In this document: piece by piece, positions 6,598 through 21,042 of the stretch
Numbering within the stretch: the stretch's first letter is position 1
Layout of the letters: the number at the start of each line of letters is the position of its first letter
NCBI GenBank assembly: GCA_905233645.1
Contig: CAJODZ010000026.1
Coordinates: 1 to 35,417 of the forward strand
Source: an uncultured Synergistales bacterium
GTDB lineage: Bacteria; Synergistota; Synergistia; Synergistales; Aminobacteriaceae
Direction of reading: 5' to 3'
Length of the DNA stretch: 35,417 bases
Position numbers and translations under genes: made by a program
Notes under the pieces: model-generated
What the model saw: the letters and a program-made list of their open reading frames with translations, nothing else
Told to the model about the DNA's origin: nothing
The model's database searches: none

Positions 6598-7308
6598 ATG
6601 AGAAAATTTTTTTATGCGAGTGTAATTCTAAACCTATTGTTAATTATTTTTATAGGCTTTGTCGCTGTGAAATATAACTGTCCAAGTAAACCCGAAAAGC
6701 GCGTAACCGGAAAATTGCCAGTAAATGCGCATTATAATGCTTTGGTAAACGTTTTTAATAATATTCCTGAAAGCAAGGGCGGTAACGTGATTATTTTTCT
6801 TGGTGACAGCATTACTGAATTTATGTATTTTGATGAATTATTAAATCTCGACGGCGTAAAAATTAAAAACCGCGGCATTGCCGGAGACACAACCGAAGGG
6901 ATTTTAAACAGGCTCGATGAAATAACAAAGGCTCACGCTGAAAAAATCTTTGTGCTTGCCGGTGTAAATGATATTTGGAACGGCGCAGATTTAAATCAAA
7001 GCAAAAAGAATTACAGAGAGATTATTAAAACACTCTCTCAAAATTCACCAGAAAGCAAAATTTTTATTCAAAGCATCGTTCCGGTTAGCGAGAGCTTAAA
7101 TTTTCCAAAAGACGCGATTGAAGATTTTAACGAAGAACTTCAAAGAATTGCCGCTGATTTTAATTGCACGTATTTGAATATTTACCCGTTATTTTTAAAT
7201 CAGAACGGCGACGCTGTTGACGAAAAATTATTTATCGACGGCATTCACATGAGCGGCGAAGGTATGAAAATTTGGGCGGAGTTTTTGAAAGATTACGTCA
7301 AAGATTAA
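6598..7308 (+). CDS. SGNH/GDSL-family hydrolase, membrane anchored
   Basis: GDSITEF block I, RGIAGDTTEG block II, GVNDIW block III, DGIHMSGEG block V. Start moved from TTG 6565 to ATG 6598, which follows aaggagg. Confidence 0.85.
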   Translation: MRKFFYASVILNLLLIIFIGFVAVKYNCPSKPEKRVTGKLPVNAHYNALVNVFNNIPESKGGNVIIFLGDSITEFMYFDELLNLDGVKIKNRGIAGDTTEGILNRLDEITKAHAEKIFVLAGVNDIWNGADLNQSKKNYREIIKTLSQNSPESKIFIQSIVPVSESLNFPKDAIEDFNEELQRIAADFNCTYLNIYPLFLNQNGDAVDEKLFIDGIHMSGEGMKIWAEFLKDYVKD

Positions 7309-8174
7309 AAATCTTTATAATAATTTGGCTCGTCAGTAAAAATTTTACAACATGCACGTCCGGCGTTTTTAGCTTTGTATAATGCGCGGTCGCTCTCTTG
7401 TAGTAATTGTTCGATTGATTTTTGAGTGTCGCTGTTGGATTGAGAAATTCCAGCGCTCACGGATAAATGAGACATGAATAAAGAGTTGTGATAATAATTT
7501 TCGAGCCGAATTAAAAACATGCTCACTTTTTCTTCAACGTCTTTAATTTTTCGCTTTCCTGTTAAGACTACAATAAACTCATCGCCGCCAAGCCTAGCAG
7601 GAAAGCCGTTTGGAAATTCGAGCTTTAACATTTTTGCGGTGTCTGCTAAAACTTTATCGCCCGTCTGGTGTCCGTAAGTATCGTTTATCTCTTTGAAATG
7701 GTCTAAATCGAATAATATGCAAACTAAATCTTTTTCATCGCGGTTATCCTCTAAATATCTCTGTAAATACCAGCGCGTTGCTAATCCTGTTAAATAATCT
7801 TGCCGCGCCATTTTGAACATTAACTCCCGATATTGCCGCTCTTTTGAACTATCGTTTAATTCACGTTCTATTCTTATTTGCAATTTGCGCATGTAAAATC
7901 TAACAGCATCGTCATTCAAAGGCCATAGCCAAATATCAAATAAGTGTTCGTAATCTTCGGGGTCAATAAATTCAAGCGAGGGCGTACACAAAATATATTG
8001 AGGAACGCTTAATTTGAGTGTTGATATTGTCATCTCAAAATCACACGCTAGAACCTCATCAATGCCACAAAATTTATATATATATTTTTCAGGAACTGGC
8101 ATTTTTTTCATTACGTTTACAACGTGCCTGTCAATTCCATATGTCTTTATTACGACTGTCTCTTCCGCGTGCAT
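7305..8174 (-). CDS. GGDEF diguanylate cyclase
   Basis: 289 aa with DYLTGLATR, FDLDHFKEINDTYGHQTGDKVL, RLGGDEF, DRALYKAKNAGR. Divergent N-terminal domain. No RxxD I-site upstream of GGDEF. Confidence 0.9.
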   Translation of the reverse strand: MHAEETVVIKTYGIDRHVVNVMKKMPVPEKYIYKFCGIDEVLACDFEMTISTLKLSVPQYILCTPSLEFIDPEDYEHLFDIWLWPLNDDAVRFYMRKLQIRIERELNDSSKERQYRELMFKMARQDYLTGLATRWYLQRYLEDNRDEKDLVCILFDLDHFKEINDTYGHQTGDKVLADTAKMLKLEFPNGFPARLGGDEFIVVLTGKRKIKDVEEKVSMFLIRLENYYHNSLFMSHLSVSAGISQSNSDTQKSIEQLLQESDRALYKAKNAGRACCKIFTDEPNYYKDF

Positions 8175-13035: not shown

Positions 13036-13073
13036 AAATATATTTTTATTAAAATTTTTAGGAGGTCATGATT

Positions 13074-15149
13074 TTGTTAAAAAAATTTTGCGGGGTTACG
13101 GGTGTTTTAATTTTAATTATTACATTCGCGGCCATGTCAAATAATCCGGTGCAAGCTTATGACGAAGGCTATCAATTTGATAACGTTTACTCTACACACG
13201 GATTACAAACTCAGTGGATGATTATCACTAAGAGCGGGACTACTGCTGGTAATTGGGCTTATGCTCTCAGCAATGATGAGGATACTACCCATACGTCCGT
13301 GCCTTTAAAAATTGCCGGTGATATCACAACTGAACGTTCAACTTTGAGCGTTTTAAATGGCCGTAACACTTTAAGCAATAATAATAGAGAGCTTGACGTT
13401 ATATTTTTAGTGTTATCCGGAAATGACCAGGAAGAAGCCGAAAACACGCTTGTGATTGATTTTTATCATTCGCCTGATGATGACGATGACGGAGAAGCGG
13501 TAACACCTGATGTTTCAGCCGGTACACTTCCTTATTATGTAGTTCGCAAAACTCCTCAAAATGGAACTTTAGACGATAGTAACGGTACTGGCAAAGAATA
13601 TAACTTATATTTTCAAAGACAGTCAGCTGCAGAATTTGGAAGTACACGCAGCAGCATGATATTCTCACAAATTCCGACTGATAGTTATCCTTCTACGCCT
13701 TCACAGACGACGTATATCCCTTTTGTCCTTGCGAATGTAAATGGTACGACAGCATCAAATCAGCCTTTAATCTTTAATACGATTTTGCGCAATAACAGAA
13801 GTACTAATCGCGGCGAGATAGTTGCTTACGACCGTTTTACATGGACAGTCGAAGAAGCCAAAACTCAATCTGAAAATACGCCTTGGGTGTTCGTCCCTGT
13901 AAGTTCTTTAACGTGGAGCAATAATAACGGTGAGAAAATTCCTTATTATTTAACAACTAAGCTCACAAATAGAACAGGCGTTAGATATGGAACATACCCG
14001 TATGATTATCCGACGATAACACCTCATCACTGGGAATTTGATTTGCCTAAATTAAGCGATTACGATAAATTACCCTCAAAATTTTATTTACATGAATTGA
14101 GCCACGCTGCACCAGGTTTAACGAGTGTTTATATATCAAATATAGACATGAACACCGTAACACCAGAAATTATGCAGTTATACCCTGTTGATCCGCCAAC
14201 ACCATATAATCCGTTGTCTTTAAAAATCAGATACAGGCCGGTTTATGGTTACAGTGTTGGTGAAGCGGAAGGGACTAGCAGCTCATCATCGACACCAGTC
14301 CCATACAGAATTACAGCATTTACTCCGCGCGCAGTGAGTTCAAGTTTTTATGAGACAGTCGCCGCAAAAATGAAAAAGAAGACATCTTCAACCTATGACA
14401 CTATCTTAGTTCCAGAAACCGCAGGTTTTTTCTCAGCTGGCGATGTTACTCCTGATTACATTTCGAGCGGTGTTTATTGTTCATTTGCAGTAAGTAAGAC
14501 AATCCCCGGCAATTATCGTCAAACAGGTTACGAAGGCATGTTACCGGTTGTTGTAACGTTCAATATTCCGGCCAGCAAGCTTGATAACTGGAACGATATG
14601 TTAACTCAATGGCATAACAACGACGGTTTATCAATCATCAAAACATATTTCAGAAATCGTTATACAGTCGGTTTATTAAGTTCTAACAACGGCAATAACG
14701 CCAACATGTTTTTAGACTTAGTTAAACGCATTGAGGAAGAACATAGCGATGATTGGACGGATTACATAAAAGTATTTTTAGACGAAGACCGCGAAGTTAT
14801 GACCGTAAGTTTTATAGTGTTATTGCTTGACGGTACGAGCGATGGAACTAATCCGGCTACGGGCATTGTTACGGACGAAACGCCCTCAGAATGGATACAG
14901 ACGAATAAATTTGTTGCGATTAGAGACGGTTTAGCAAATAACAAATGGGAAATGACATTTTTTATCGCTCCGGCAAATTACACTATTTCGGGCAATCAGC
15001 AAACCAACTCAACAGACCACACTAATACTAATCCAGGCAGCTCTGGTGGCGGCGGTGGCGGTTGTAATTTTGGCTTTATAGGTTCTTTAGCAGCTATGTT
15101 AATTATTTTTGGCGCAAGCTATTCACATAAAAAGGCAGGTAATTTTTAA
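13074..15149 (+). CDS. Secreted protein with Synergist-CTERM sorting tail
   Basis: Signal peptide, no recognised central domain, C-terminus GSSGGGGGGCNFGFIGSLAAMLIIFGASYSHKKAGNF. TTG 13074 favoured over ATG 13068, which is only 2 nt from the aggagg RBS. Confidence 0.8.
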   Translation: MLKKFCGVTGVLILIITFAAMSNNPVQAYDEGYQFDNVYSTHGLQTQWMIITKSGTTAGNWAYALSNDEDTTHTSVPLKIAGDITTERSTLSVLNGRNTLSNNNRELDVIFLVLSGNDQEEAENTLVIDFYHSPDDDDDGEAVTPDVSAGTLPYYVVRKTPQNGTLDDSNGTGKEYNLYFQRQSAAEFGSTRSSMIFSQIPTDSYPSTPSQTTYIPFVLANVNGTTASNQPLIFNTILRNNRSTNRGEIVAYDRFTWTVEEAKTQSENTPWVFVPVSSLTWSNNNGEKIPYYLTTKLTNRTGVRYGTYPYDYPTITPHHWEFDLPKLSDYDKLPSKFYLHELSHAAPGLTSVYISNIDMNTVTPEIMQLYPVDPPTPYNPLSLKIRYRPVYGYSVGEAEGTSSSSSTPVPYRITAFTPRAVSSSFYETVAAKMKKKTSSTYDTILVPETAGFFSAGDVTPDYISSGVYCSFAVSKTIPGNYRQTGYEGMLPVVVTFNIPASKLDNWNDMLTQWHNNDGLSIIKTYFRNRYTVGLLSSNNGNNANMFLDLVKRIEEEHSDDWTDYIKVFLDEDREVMTVSFIVLLLDGTSDGTNPATGIVTDETPSEWIQTNKFVAIRDGLANNKWEMTFFIAPANYTISGNQQTNSTDHTNTNPGSSGGGGGGCNFGFIGSLAAMLIIFGASYSHKKAGNF

Positions 15150-15152
15150 ATC

Positions 15153-18100
15153 ATGACGAAAAAATTTTTACTCGCTTTAATATTCATTCTTAGTGTTGCT
15201 TCAATCTCTTTTGCCGCAACAGCAACAAGAACGCCGGGAGTTTATGAAGTTCCTTCAACGATTGAAATTCCCGACCCTGATGACCCCGACGCAGACCCTA
15301 CGGAATTTGAATTAAACTCAATCGCGGATGCTATAGACTTTGCCAATAATCAAGAGGAAGAGCCTCCGGCAAGCGTTACGATTACTCTTGTATCAGGGTA
15401 TGACATAACAGGCGATGAAGAATTAGACACAAGCGATTTTAACGGCATTGTTAGGATTAACGGCTCTGTTCCTACAGTTACGGACGCCAGACATTACACG
15501 ATAAACGGCGGTCAAATCGTCTTTTCAAACGTATCATTTAACGGTAATGGTACTGGAGGCGGTGTAGTCATTAACTCGGGAGCGGAGGTAAGTTTTGACA
15601 ACGGCACTCGTTTTAATAGAAATTACGCCTCTGAATTAGATGACCCGCGCGGCGGAGCTTTATATATTTATGACGGCGGAACTGTTAATTTAGGAAATTG
15701 TACTTTTTCAAACAATACAGCTCATGCCGGAGGAGCAATTTTTAACGCAGGAACTTTGAATTTTAACGGTTCAGCAAGTTTTTCAAACAATACAGCGGAC
15801 GGCGAAGAACCTGACCCTGACGCAGACCCCGATGACGACGATGACTCATATCCTGGTTACGGCGGTGCGATTTACTCAACAAAAGAGTTAAATATTAACA
15901 ACGGCACATTTTCAAGTAACAGAGGACTTATGGGAGCGGCTGTTTATGCAACTGCTAACATCACGATTAACGGCGGAACTTTCACGAGCAACGGTACTAA
16001 TTCAACAATCACTACCACTAACGGCGGCGTTGCATATTGCACAGGAACATTAACAGTAAACGGCGGTACGTTTTCAAGCAATACAGCAACTAACGGCGGC
16101 GTTATTTCCGGTGCAAATTTGGCAGTTAATGGCGGTACGTTCTCACAAAATAATGCTGATTTAGGCGGAGCTGTTTATAGTACTTCGTCAATGACAATCG
16201 GCGCAGGAACTTTCTCAAACAACACGGCTAATCAGGGCGGTGCGGTTTATGCTTCAGCGGCTATCACAGTCAATAACGGAACTTTTTCGGGCAATACAGC
16301 AACTCGCGGCGGAGCAATCCTTTCAACTACAACTGTAACAATCAGCGGCGGAACGTTTGATAAAAACTCAGCAACCGGTACGACAGCTTTTGACCCCGAA
16401 GATACAGACGTTGACGGCGACGGAGGCGGAGCGGTTTATGCTAATTCAATCGTTGTGAACGGAGACGCTGTTTTTACATCGAATACTGCTGATGAAGAGG
16501 CTGGCTCAGGCGGTGCGTTATGTTCGTTATCGAATTTAAATATCAGTGCTGGAACTTTCGGCGAGACTTCACAAAACGGTAACAGTGCTAAAGACGGCGG
16601 AGCTGGTTTTGCTAAAGCTAGTGCGACAATCAGCGGCGGTTCATTTAATTACAACAAGGCCGGAATTGCGGACGAAGGTAACGGAGGAGCTATTTACGCA
16701 GGAAATAATATTACAGTTACGGGCGGAACGTTCACAGGCAATAACGTCAACGGCTCAACTGAGAACCATTTCGGCGGCGCGCTTTATGCTGGGACTAACG
16801 TAACTTTAAACGGCACAATGTTATTCAAAGAGAATATTGCGGATAACGGTTTTGGCGGAGCTATATATGCTGAACGTCGAATTTCAAATACTACCGGCCT
16901 CCCGATGTTTCAGGGCAACGAGGCTCATGCTGGCGGTGCGGTTTACTCTCCATATACCGGAACTGGCTCAAATTACGCTGTAAGTATGGTTAATGCCTCT
17001 TTTGATAAAAACTTATCAACAACGACCGGCGGAGCTGTTCACACTGAAGGCATTGCGAATTTTTCAAACAGCACTTTCACGGCTAACGAAGCTGGTACAT
17101 TTGGCGGCGGAATTTATGCTAACGGCCATGTAATTATTTTTGAATGCACGTTTGGCGGTTCGGGAACAACTTCAGGACTTGGAAATATTGCGGCGGCTTC
17201 TGGCGGTGGTATTTACACTCAAGGTTCAGGCACGAGCTACATTCAAAATAGCGCGTTCGTCCAAAATTCAGCGTTAAGAGGCGGAGCGGTAGCGTTAAGC
17301 AGTCCTCCGACAGCCGGAACACCAACGACAGACCTTCACACGATTTTAGTACAGCGTTGTTACTTTGGTTCTAATACAGCAACGAATGAAGGCGGAGCGT
17401 TAAGATTAGACGGTTATTCATCTCAAGTTTTGCAATGTACATTTGAAGAGAACAGGAATACAACGGGAGCTACAACACTTGAAGGCGGAGCGGCTTATTT
17501 AGCATCTCAAAGGATTGTTACAGCGAACTGTACTTTTTATAATAATTCAGCACCTTCAAGCACCGGCGGAGCTTTACACATCACGAGTGCCGGTTCTCAA
17601 TCGTTTGCAGCAATTTTAATGAATACTTTTGTAGGCAATAAAGTCGGTTCAGGAATGGGCGGAGGAATTTATTTAGACCGTTCCACAGGTATGACAATGT
17701 TTGGAAATTTAATGGTCAATAACACTGCCGGTACAGCTTCAGGGAAGGACGTATTTGTAAATTCCGGCGTAATCAGCTCAGGCGGTTATAACATTCTTAC
17801 GGACTTTGGTTTAATGTCATCAGGACGGCCAAGCTCATTCTCATGGTATATATCGCCTTCGGTAACCGGAGATGCTGAATTAGATTCTTTTGACGCGGAT
17901 TATTTAACGGGCGACTTTTTCACGACACCGATTAGTAAAGCAAATGCCAGTTATAACGTCGGGGCTAACACTGGTTATTCATTATGGGTATTAGCATTAA
18001 GACCGAGTACAGATGAAGCACCGAATATAGCATTAGGTTTTGCTTCCGGTGTAGCGTCGCGTCAATATTTTAATAATTACGGGCTTGAATATGTTGACGG

Positions 18101-19340
18101 TATTGATAACTCAAGGCCAAGCTCTCATCGTTGGGACACAGGCGCGCACCAATTATCGACAAAGATTGGCGAGGGCGGCGATGATGACGATGACGATACA
18201 GGATATTTAACTAAGATAAAAATTAGCGGCCTTCCTGCAACATTATGCTATGTCGGACAAACAACGAGTTTAGTTGTCAAGGGATATGACCAGGCAAATA
18301 GGCTATTAGGCAACGTAGCTGTAACTTGGTCAGTAAATCCGGGCGGTTATATTGAAATTGATGATAACACGGGCAATATTTATATTTACAGAGCTACAGC
18401 AGACAACGCATACGTAACAATTACAGCGACTGCTGCGAATGGGCTTACTGCTTCAACGAGGCTTTATATTCGCGAAGACGACGCTACAGGAACGAACTTA
18501 GCACCCAAAATTTGGAATATTATTTATGAATACATAAAGGATAGCGAAAGTAAATTAACGGTTGATACATCAACAACAACCGCAAGCATTGCAAGTGAAA
18601 CGTTTCAAAGTGAGTTTACTAATTTATGGTCAAGCACAGGGCAGTTAGCAACAATTTCCGATAATGATGATTTTGAATTAACTTCTAATCCGTCAACTAT
18701 CACAAACTCTGACGGCGATACAAGCGTAAAATCAGGCGTTGAAGTTTTTGTGAGTGGGTGTTCTGAAGGTGATATATTGCCTCTAGTTTATTCATGGAGT
18801 TTCGATGAGGACAATATAGCTCAATTAACATGGTCATCAGGTACGGCTAACGCTTCTATAGCTACGACAATGGACACTTTTAAAAATGTTTTTACGGCTG
18901 CTTTTCAAGATTACAACGGTAAAAATATTCCTGTAATAGGCTCAGGCGGCGTAAGTTTTGAAGATGCCGTAAACGCAGGTGCTTTTTACGTACAAGAAAA
19001 TAGCGGTTCAGTAACGGGATTAACTTTTTATTTGAAGGCTTATATTGCAAACGTCGCAGCAAATACAAATTCACAGCTTGTTACGATTGATGACGGCTCG
19101 AAAATTTTAATTGTTCCCGACGGTTTAAGCGATGAAAATATTGCTGGCTCGATGTTTTTATTGAAAAAAGCTAACACTTCAGGAGCTAGCGACAGCAACC
19201 CAACCACTCCAAGCGATAACGATAACAATAAAAATTCCAAAGACGAAGGCTCAGGCGGTGGTGGCGGCGGCGGTTGTAATTTAAATTTTGCCGGAATGTT
19301 AGGAATTTGCTTACTTGCTGTTTTTATAAAACGCAGATAA
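15153..19340 (+). CDS. Large Pmp-type right-handed beta-helix surface protein with BIG2-like domain and Synergist-CTERM tail
   Basis: 1395 aa, signal peptide, many GGA(I/V)-x-FxxN repeats (GGAVYASAAITVNNGTFSGNTATRGGAI), BIG2-like segment near residue 1020, C-terminus GSGGGGGGGCNLNFAGMLGICLLAVFIKRR. Confidence 0.9.
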   Translation: MTKKFLLALIFILSVASISFAATATRTPGVYEVPSTIEIPDPDDPDADPTEFELNSIADAIDFANNQEEEPPASVTITLVSGYDITGDEELDTSDFNGIVRINGSVPTVTDARHYTINGGQIVFSNVSFNGNGTGGGVVINSGAEVSFDNGTRFNRNYASELDDPRGGALYIYDGGTVNLGNCTFSNNTAHAGGAIFNAGTLNFNGSASFSNNTADGEEPDPDADPDDDDDSYPGYGGAIYSTKELNINNGTFSSNRGLMGAAVYATANITINGGTFTSNGTNSTITTTNGGVAYCTGTLTVNGGTFSSNTATNGGVISGANLAVNGGTFSQNNADLGGAVYSTSSMTIGAGTFSNNTANQGGAVYASAAITVNNGTFSGNTATRGGAILSTTTVTISGGTFDKNSATGTTAFDPEDTDVDGDGGGAVYANSIVVNGDAVFTSNTADEEAGSGGALCSLSNLNISAGTFGETSQNGNSAKDGGAGFAKASATISGGSFNYNKAGIADEGNGGAIYAGNNITVTGGTFTGNNVNGSTENHFGGALYAGTNVTLNGTMLFKENIADNGFGGAIYAERRISNTTGLPMFQGNEAHAGGAVYSPYTGTGSNYAVSMVNASFDKNLSTTTGGAVHTEGIANFSNSTFTANEAGTFGGGIYANGHVIIFECTFGGSGTTSGLGNIAAASGGGIYTQGSGTSYIQNSAFVQNSALRGGAVALSSPPTAGTPTTDLHTILVQRCYFGSNTATNEGGALRLDGYSSQVLQCTFEENRNTTGATTLEGGAAYLASQRIVTANCTFYNNSAPSSTGGALHITSAGSQSFAAILMNTFVGNKVGSGMGGGIYLDRSTGMTMFGNLMVNNTAGTASGKDVFVNSGVISSGGYNILTDFGLMSSGRPSSFSWYISPSVTGDAELDSFDADYLTGDFFTTPISKANASYNVGANTGYSLWVLALRPSTDEAPNIALGFASGVASRQYFNNYGLEYVDGIDNSRPSSHRWDTGAHQLSTKIGEGGDDDDDDTGYLTKIKISGLPATLCYVGQTTSLVVKGYDQANRLLGNVAVTWSVNPGGYIEIDDNTGNIYIYRATADNAYVTITATAANGLTASTRLYIREDDATGTNLAPKIWNIIYEYIKDSESKLTVDTSTTTASIASETFQSEFTNLWSSTGQLATISDNDDFELTSNPSTITNSDGDTSVKSGVEVFVSGCSEGDILPLVYSWSFDEDNIAQLTWSSGTANASIATTMDTFKNVFTAAFQDYNGKNIPVIGSGGVSFEDAVNAGAFYVQENSGSVTGLTFYLKAYIANVAANTNSQLVTIDDGSKILIVPDGLSDENIAGSMFLLKKANTSGASDSNPTTPSDNDNNKNSKDEGSGGGGGGGCNLNFAGMLGICLLAVFIKRR
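15640..17740 (+). repeat. Degenerate coding repeats of the beta-helix domain
   Basis: Recurring ggcgga-gc-gtttatgc and ggcggaac(g/t)tttc DNA units encoding GGAVY...GTF(S/T)xN. Confidence 0.8.
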
Positions 19341-19369: not shown

Positions 19370-19399
19370 GCGGGCTTCCTTCGGGAAGTCTGCTTTTTT
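19370..19399 (+). terminator. Intrinsic terminator of the beta-helix gene
   Basis: 10-bp stem GCGGGCTTCC-TTCG-GGAAGTCTGC (two G.T wobbles) with a cUUCGg tetraloop, followed by T6. Confidence 0.9.
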
Positions 19400-19455
19400 A
19401 TCATTAACTGGCAAGAAGACTCCCACTTCTTCAAGTGGGAGATGAATTGCCTGTA

Positions 19456-19464
19456 TGGTATAAT
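19456..19464 (+). promoter_or_regulatory. Extended -10 promoter for the omegaRNA-like transcript
   Basis: TGGTATAAT = TGnTATAAT at 19456-19464; no good -35 seen. Confidence 0.45.
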
Positions 19465-19470
19465 ACCGCG

Positions 19471-19674
19471 CAGGTTTTCAAATGTTGCCCGTAAGGTAAC
19501 AGTACCTATGGAGCGTAGGGAAGGGTTAGCCTCATAAAAAACCCATAGCCTCGGAAACTGATTCCCATAGCCTCGGAAACTGATTCCTGTAAAACGAAAT
19601 CCTGAAGACTAAGAAGTATTCAGGTTAGGAGGATTAAAGGAAGCTGCCATCTTCTATAAGTGGCGGTAGTTCAC
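19471..19674 (+). ncRNA. omegaRNA-like (TnpB guide scaffold-like) RNA
   Basis: Stem-loops CCTGAA..TTCAGG (19601-19624) and GCTGCCATCTTCTATAAGTGGCGGTAGTTCAC at the 3' end resemble TnpB 3'-end RNA architecture; no tnpB in the window. Confidence 0.45.
19542..19585 (+). repeat. Perfect 22-bp tandem duplication
   Basis: cccatagcctcggaaactgatt x2 (19542-19563, 19564-19585). Confidence 0.95.
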
Positions 19675-19709
19675 GGATTATGCTAAAATGTATCAGGTGG
19701 ATAAAAAAT

Positions 19710-19743
19710 ACAGGAGACAGCGAAAGGGAACTGTTGCTCCTGT
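19710..19743 (-). terminator. Intrinsic terminator for the minus-strand small ORF
   Basis: Minus strand: ACAGGAG-caACAGttccctttcgCTGT-CTCCTGT followed by ATTTTTTAT. Confidence 0.75.
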
Positions 19744-19764
19744 TGGGAATTGAAAATCCCGGCG

Positions 19765-19941
19765 TTACTTCCCTAATTTTTCCTGAAGTTCAAGAACTTC
19801 GATGATCAATCCGAGTAAGCAATATAGAAAAACGGTGAGTGTAACCACTTTTGCGGGTAGGGAACTCACCAGTTTTTTTATTTTTTTCCACCAGGACTTT
19901 CCAGAAGGCTTGCGTTTCTTATGTTTCTGCCGGGTTTTCAT
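19765..19941 (-). CDS. 58-aa basic single-TM small protein (not in the ORF track)
   Basis: Read on the minus strand: MKTRQKHKKRKPSGKSWWKKIKKLVSSLPAKVVTLTVFLYCLLGLIIEVLELQEKLGK*. ggtgat RBS a few nt upstream of ATG, extended -10 upstream and intrinsic terminator downstream. Confidence 0.65.
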   Translation of the reverse strand: MKTRQKHKKRKPSGKSWWKKIKKLVSSLPAKVVTLTVFLYCLLGLIIEVLELQEKLGK

Positions 19942-20018
19942 GAAAAATCACCAGATTTCTAACGGTGGAGTTCCCTTGCTGACAGACCGTATTTCTGTCC
20001 GGATCCCTTTCTTAGAAA

Positions 20019-20027
20019 AGTATTATA
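20019..20027 (-). promoter_or_regulatory. Extended -10 promoter for the 58-aa ORF
   Basis: Minus strand TGTTATAAT (TGnTATAAT), about 80 nt upstream of the ATG; coordinates within a few nt. Confidence 0.45.
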
Positions 20028-20157
20028 ACAGTAGCCTCAAATGAAAACGTGTAATTTTTATGTAGCTGTTATTTGCACTCAGGCTCATAGAGTGATAAAC
20101 TTCCAATCCGAAAAAGTCAAAGTTAGTTAATTAAATTTAAAGGAGCGATTTTTTATT

Positions 20158-21042
20158 ATGGCTGTTCAATATAAAGATTATTATAAAATTTTAGGCGTTG
20201 AAAGAAGTGCAACTGCTGATGAAATAAAAAAGGCTTATAGAAATTTGGCTAAAAAATTTCATCCAGACGTAAATAAAAACAAAGACGCTGAACAAAAATA
20301 TAAAGAGATTAACGAAGCTTATGAAGTCTTAAAAGACCCTGATAAACGCCAAAAATATGATACGTTAGGAATGAATTGGCAGGCCGGTCAAGATTTCACA
20401 CCTCCTCCAGGCTGGGGACAGGGGAATTTTGGCGGCACTCATGTTGAATTTGGTGATTTGGGAGGGTTTAGCGATTTCTTCCAGACGTTATTTGGCGGCG
20501 GCGGATTTGGTGATATTTTTAACAATGCACGTTCAAGCCGTACTCCGGTTAGAAGAGATATCGACGCTAATTTAACTCTAACACTTGAAACAATTTTACG
20601 CGGCGGTGTCCATAATCTTGAATTAAATACTCAAAACGGGAAACGTGAATTAAAAGTTAGATTGCCGCGCGGCGTTACAGACGGTTCAAAAATTACGTTA
20701 AAGGGCAAAGCTGATAACGGCGGTGATATAAATATTACAATTCACGTCGCGAAACATGATGTTTTTACACTTGATGGCTATGACTTAACTTGTGAATATA
20801 AAATTAAAGCTTGGGACGCTGTCCTCGGTAAAAGCATAAATATTCAAACTTTGGACGGCTCAGGTACGGTCGAAGTTCCAGCAGGTGCGCAAGACGGAAA
20901 TAGATTAAGGCTCGCAGGTAAAGGACTTCCAAAACGCGACGGCACAAATGGAGATTTGTTTATAAAAATTAAAATCGAGTTGCCAAAAAGAATTACAAAC
21001 GAACAGCGTAAATTATGGGAAGAACTTGCTAAATTGGGCTAA
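20158..21042 (+). CDS. DnaJ-family co-chaperone, CbpA-like (no zinc finger)
   Basis: J domain DYYKILGVERSATADEIKKAYRNLAKKFHPDVNK with HPD motif, G/F region, C-terminal DnaJ domain. Confidence 0.92.
   Translation: MAVQYKDYYKILGVERSATADEIKKAYRNLAKKFHPDVNKNKDAEQKYKEINEAYEVLKDPDKRQKYDTLGMNWQAGQDFTPPPGWGQGNFGGTHVEFGDLGGFSDFFQTLFGGGGFGDIFNNARSSRTPVRRDIDANLTLTLETILRGGVHNLELNTQNGKRELKVRLPRGVTDGSKITLKGKADNGGDINITIHVAKHDVFTLDGYDLTCEYKIKAWDAVLGKSINIQTLDGSGTVEVPAGAQDGNRLRLAGKGLPKRDGTNGDLFIKIKIELPKRITNEQRKLWEELAKLG

Follow-up and report, generated by a model that had tools for sequence, protein, structure and literature searches.

A minus-strand gene of 58 codons in the window (the whole 35,417-nt stretch analysed here, contig CAJODZ010000026.1 of an uncultured Synergistales bacterium) is best explained as part of a type I toxin–antitoxin module of a new family, a reading to which we assign a probability of about 0.7. 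Under the proposed mechanism, the full-length mRNA would be closed and poorly translated through pairing of its 5′ and 3′ ends together with a leader pseudoknot, and a cis-antisense RNA of ~190 nt would pair with the 3′ UTR and the ORF, leading to RNase III decay and/or a translation block by analogy with RatA and SR4 in Bacillus; on loss of the antisense RNA, processed mRNA would be translated and the peptide would damage the membrane.

The gene lies between a plus-strand gene for a 1395-aa beta-helix/PMP-type protein (15153–19340) and a plus-strand dnaJ-like gene (20158–21042), with the following coding and expression signals:

19765–19941, minus strand: toxin-like ORF of 58 aa (coding 19768–19941; stop TAA 19765–19767), with a basic N-terminus (net +13 before the transmembrane segment) and one hydrophobic helix
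19947–19952, minus strand: Shine–Dalgarno sequence GGTGAT, assigned from sequence
20022–20030, minus strand: sense promoter, extended −10 TGTTATAAT, no −35 recognised
19710–19743, minus strand: sense intrinsic terminator, stem ACAGGAG/CTCCTGT, loop of 20 nt, tail ATTTTTTAT

The ORF, ribosome-binding site (RBS), extended −10 and terminator, along with a leader hairpin described below, are all present where the original prediction had placed them. A generic scanner called neither the sense promoter nor the sense terminator in the window: it accepts only promoters with a −35 box and terminators with a loop of 3–8 nt, and the signals here are an extended −10 and a 20-nt loop. Recurrence at equivalent positions in dozens of relatives places these locus features beyond coincidence; most family members have a −10 of the extended type at the position homologous to that of the window. 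A single-sequence AlphaFold2 model of the window protein comprises helices at residues 16–27 and 29–57 (mean pLDDT 78).

A single query with the 58-residue protein retrieved no relative from the genome and viral collections, but weak matches at E ≤ 1 opened the way to the family: a first profile built from six members revealed its large extent, and a second, built from 45 members, located relatives in 51 of the 188 genomes of the phylum (E ≤ 0.001), all within one of its 12 families. They occur in 40 of the 43 genomes of the genus to which the window belongs, six further genera are represented as well, and a genome may contain as many as nine copies; copy numbers counted in draft genomes are probably too low because many arrays sit at contig ends. 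At least two copies are found on sixteen of the examined contigs, where neighbours are mostly spaced at 310–390 bp; one contig (G041:C147) carries five consecutive copies. Tandem arrays of three to five modules were observed at loci L076 (G041:C147), L077 (G107:C2), L078 (G049:C58) and L134 (G045:C126), and some neighbouring array copies differ in their 5′–3′ pairing sequences. Other copies (on G054:C5, G052:C10, G007:C25, G046:C99 and G017:C74) show in-frame stops within the toxin frame or close to it and are apparently decayed modules.

Typical members of the family carry a basic stretch of ~20 residues followed by ..LAAALYWLvRliLLLWDRF, with a median N-terminal net charge of +9 and a median best 19-aa hydropathy of 1.9. 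Membrane type I toxins are described as shorter than 60 aa and as having a single transmembrane helix (PMC8309996); family peptides have a median length of 46 aa (range 29–58, the shortest lengths being due to automatic start choice), and one transmembrane helix is predicted, residues 29–57 in the model of the window protein. The profile recovers full-length ORFs with an RBS at a fixed place. Differences among related copies are distributed over codon positions 1, 2 and 3 as 608:259:1569, with a synonymous share of 61% against 24% expected, and this codon-position bias and excess of synonymous differences indicate that the protein is under purifying selection. The suggestion of a small translated membrane protein, type I toxin-like and with a structured, possibly translation-limiting mRNA, gains support from homologues with a conserved reading frame, which answer half of the refuting condition attached to the original prediction, and from covarying RNA structure, whereas the description of the gene as standalone has to be given up: a large family exists, and a conserved antisense promoter, unseen in the original prediction, faces the gene.

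Within the same genome, a second intact copy of 54 codons, reached from a weak protein match, is located on contig C10, with promoter, leader, RBS and terminator laid out as in the window. The leader also recurs on contig C23 (79% identity over 65 bp, E 7e-9 in a DNA search); there a relic (7247–7330, minus strand, of locus L008), which adjoins clpC, retains the promoter and the pseudoknot leader with an ORF of only 10 codons and a GTG start, and could be a dead copy or a leftover leader RNA. Comparison with known families yielded nothing of note in Pfam-A for 45 members, none of which matched the Hok, Ldr, Fst or TxpA/holin-like families at E ≤ 1, no match of note for five members in NCBIfam or PHROG, and nothing relevant in Rfam for the window and family loci. 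Pattern and blastn searches of viral contigs, plasmids and phages returned nothing convincing, and tblastn with one family member against plasmids and phages returned no match; a Gemmatimonadetes match and a match within a repeat array in another genome were both dismissed as chance.

Several elements of the mRNA are predicted to pair:

20004–20011, minus strand: 5′-end mRNA segment GAAAGGGA, one side of the 5′–3′ long-distance pairing
19722–19729, minus strand: terminator-loop segment TCCCTTTC, the other side of that pairing
19981–19999, minus strand: 5′-UTR hairpin H1, GACAG(AAATACGGT)CTGTC, from sequence and family covariation
19962–19966, minus strand: pseudoknot strand ACCGT, just upstream of the RBS, pairing with loop ACGGT at 19986–19990

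Taken alone, the 5′–3′ pairing of the window is modestly unlikely, its 8 bp being reached by 38 of 1000 shuffles. Across the family, the first ~20 nt of each of 82 copies were compared with the terminator region by the sum of Watson–Crick runs, and each copy fitted its own partner better than those of others (523 versus 446 ± 8 permuted, none of 5000 permutations as high); in 69 aligned leaders the H1 arms (277 paired cells versus 240 ± 4 permuted) and the pseudoknot (386 versus 341 ± 4) likewise covaried, with the proviso that all three sets of permutations ignore the relatedness of copies, so that the z-scores are inflated. Compensated versions of the 5′–3′ pairing include GAGGGG/CCCCTC, GAGGGAG/CTCCCTC, CGGTGGG/CCCACCG, GAGAGAG/CTCTCTC, GAGGAAGT/ACTTCCTC and GCGAAGGGAG/CTCCCTTCGC; the C10 copy has just five contiguous Watson–Crick pairs, or seven with one G–U. 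In all three leaders of the genome the hairpin loop is complementary to the stretch preceding the RBS (window ACGGT/ACCGT, C23 CACGG/CCGTG, C10 TTACGG/CCGTAA). The window copy is a divergent family member, and its 5-bp pseudoknot was read directly off the sequence, the family alignment misregistering the window row by one base. An anti-RBS pairing of CACC with GGTG, proposed originally, is present in the window (19949–19967) but is not conserved: the aligned leaders rule it out as a family feature, the conserved partner of the segment being the leader-hairpin loop, and, its bases being engaged in the conserved pseudoknot, it can be at most an alternative local state.

On the opposite strand, the outline of a candidate antitoxin RNA can be discerned:

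19681–19689, plus strand: antisense promoter, extended −10 TGCTAAAAT, just past the sense terminator
19696–19887, plus strand: predicted cis-antisense RNA of ~192 nt, antitoxin candidate, placed from promoter and terminator positions
19834–19887, plus strand: predicted antisense intrinsic terminator within the ORF, GGTGAGTG..AACTCACC then AGTTTTTTTATTTTTTT, from sequence and synonymous controls

The predicted RNA would be complementary to the 3′ UTR and most of the ORF in the window. Among 73 copies picked by protein match and sense promoter, 70 have an exact TGnTAnAAT on the other strand no more than 160 nt beyond the stop codon, against 1.7 expected and 1 for a reversed-pattern control, and the wider motif profile, TRTGnTAnAAT, has the extended −10 form. 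The in-ORF hairpin is preserved by codon choice and is followed by a U-tract on the antisense reading: antisense terminator scores of at least 16 were obtained for 67% of copies versus 16% of synonymous controls, and the hairpin of the window was equalled by one of 500 family-codon and none of 500 own-codon synonymous controls. For the same hairpins, at least six T occur in the next 10 nt in 46 of 58 cases on the antisense side versus 14 of 58 on the sense side; the assignment as an antisense terminator is nonetheless not clean, because many copies are T-rich on the sense side too (33 of 73 score at least 16). At strict cut-offs, all four RNA features occur together in 46 of 69 copies.

The original prediction starts the locus at 19675, a single base away from the end of an unrelated ~275-bp repeat (19398–19674, minus strand). 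This repeat begins GTGAACTACCGCCACTTATAG and ends in the hairpin CTCCCACTTGAAGAAGTGGGAG and AGTTAATGATAA; some 7 bp separate it from the antisense promoter. About ten more near-complete or long partial copies of this repeat, at 73–98% identity, are present in the genome, the window copy having an extra internal duplication of 22 nt; its ends suggest a non-autonomous IS200/IS605-type element. Directly upstream of the 1395-aa Chlamydia-PMP/beta-helix repeat protein gene, a plus-strand gene (13068–15149) encodes a 693-aa protein with no Pfam match, and the two products are a possible secreted or surface pair; a Cas effector with tracrRNA was ruled out as the neighbour, the 1395-aa product being of beta-helix/PMP type.

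The entire RNA evidence would fit equally well a non-toxic small membrane protein, such as one regulating a membrane complex, whose dosage a structured mRNA and a cis-antisense RNA would keep low. Copy numbers ranging from zero to nine, tandem amplification and decayed copies within one genus are, however, typical of toxin–antitoxin modules and unusual for a housekeeping regulator, making this alternative unlikely. Much less probable still is a selfish or regulatory repeat built on structured RNA, to which the short ORF would be incidental: such an element could account for the covariation of RNA structure and for the C23 copy, in which promoter and leader outlast all but 10 codons, but the bias over codon positions, the synonymous excess and the recovery of full-length ORFs with a fixed RBS all argue for a selected protein.

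The antisense RNA itself might be dispensed with if the downstream TGnTAnAAT served otherwise, as a terminator tail or protein site, and control lay solely with mRNA folding or with a trans-acting RNA. Overlap of the motif with the terminator U-tract (TATTTTATCACA) in many copies speaks for this, yet a terminator has no need of the conserved CAYA (antisense TRTG), and in the window, C10 and G041/G056 copies the motif is separate from the terminator, which has a U-tract of its own; we regard this version as very improbable. A type I module with a cis-antisense antitoxin is the preferred reading of the locus.

Features of several known type I systems are combined in the family. A small membrane protein (here a predicted toxin) and a 3′-overlapping antisense RNA (likewise predicted) recall bsrG/SR4 and txpA/RatA of Bacillus subtilis, whose antitoxins bind the 3′ ends of the toxin mRNAs and promote their degradation (PMC6562991); the protein here differs in having no Pfam match to any known toxin family, the overlap, at ~190 nt versus 100–140 bp, would extend across most of the ORF, and a leader pseudoknot and pairing of the 5′ end with the terminator loop are present. 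Pairing of 5′ and 3′ ends inactivates the full-length type I toxin mRNAs of Hok and AapA (PMC6733600). Likeness to aapA/IsoA of Helicobacter/Campylobacter extends to multiple copies, a small basic single-helix protein (a predicted toxin here) and a 5′–3′ long-distance interaction in the full-length mRNA, indicated in the family by covariation but between different partners (cf. PMC6733600): the AapA Shine–Dalgarno sequence is masked directly by the 3′ end, whereas here the 5′-terminal stretch pairs with the terminator loop. With hok/Sok the family would share a 5′–3′ closed, translationally inert mRNA and a membrane peptide with a positively charged N-terminus, differing in the lack of a Hok family match and in a predicted antisense RNA on the 3′ side. 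Transcription of IsoA starts inside the toxin ORF, whereas the antisense promoter here lies beyond the terminator.

No report linking type I systems with Synergistetes was found in the open-access literature searched, an absence that is not proof; a 2025 paper states that such systems had previously been identified solely in Proteobacteria, Firmicutes and Tenericutes, adds its own cyanobacterial case, and attributes this narrow range of phyla to search methods that depend on known sequences (PMC12390103). The present family, its genes below common ORF cut-offs and its members lacking a match in family libraries, would escape such methods. On balance, and with only slight preference, we take it to be the first type I family of the phylum, composed of tandem membrane-toxin genes in which the coding segments for the basic and transmembrane regions also serve as the antitoxin RNA's terminator, and in which each copy has its own compensated pairing of 5′ end and terminator loop, so that neighbours may be regulated separately. 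The family would provide one RNA switch in dozens of natural variants, opening 5′–3′ closure, pseudoknot control and antisense pairing to tests by compensatory mutation, and would offer a clean case for why such modules multiply in tandem.
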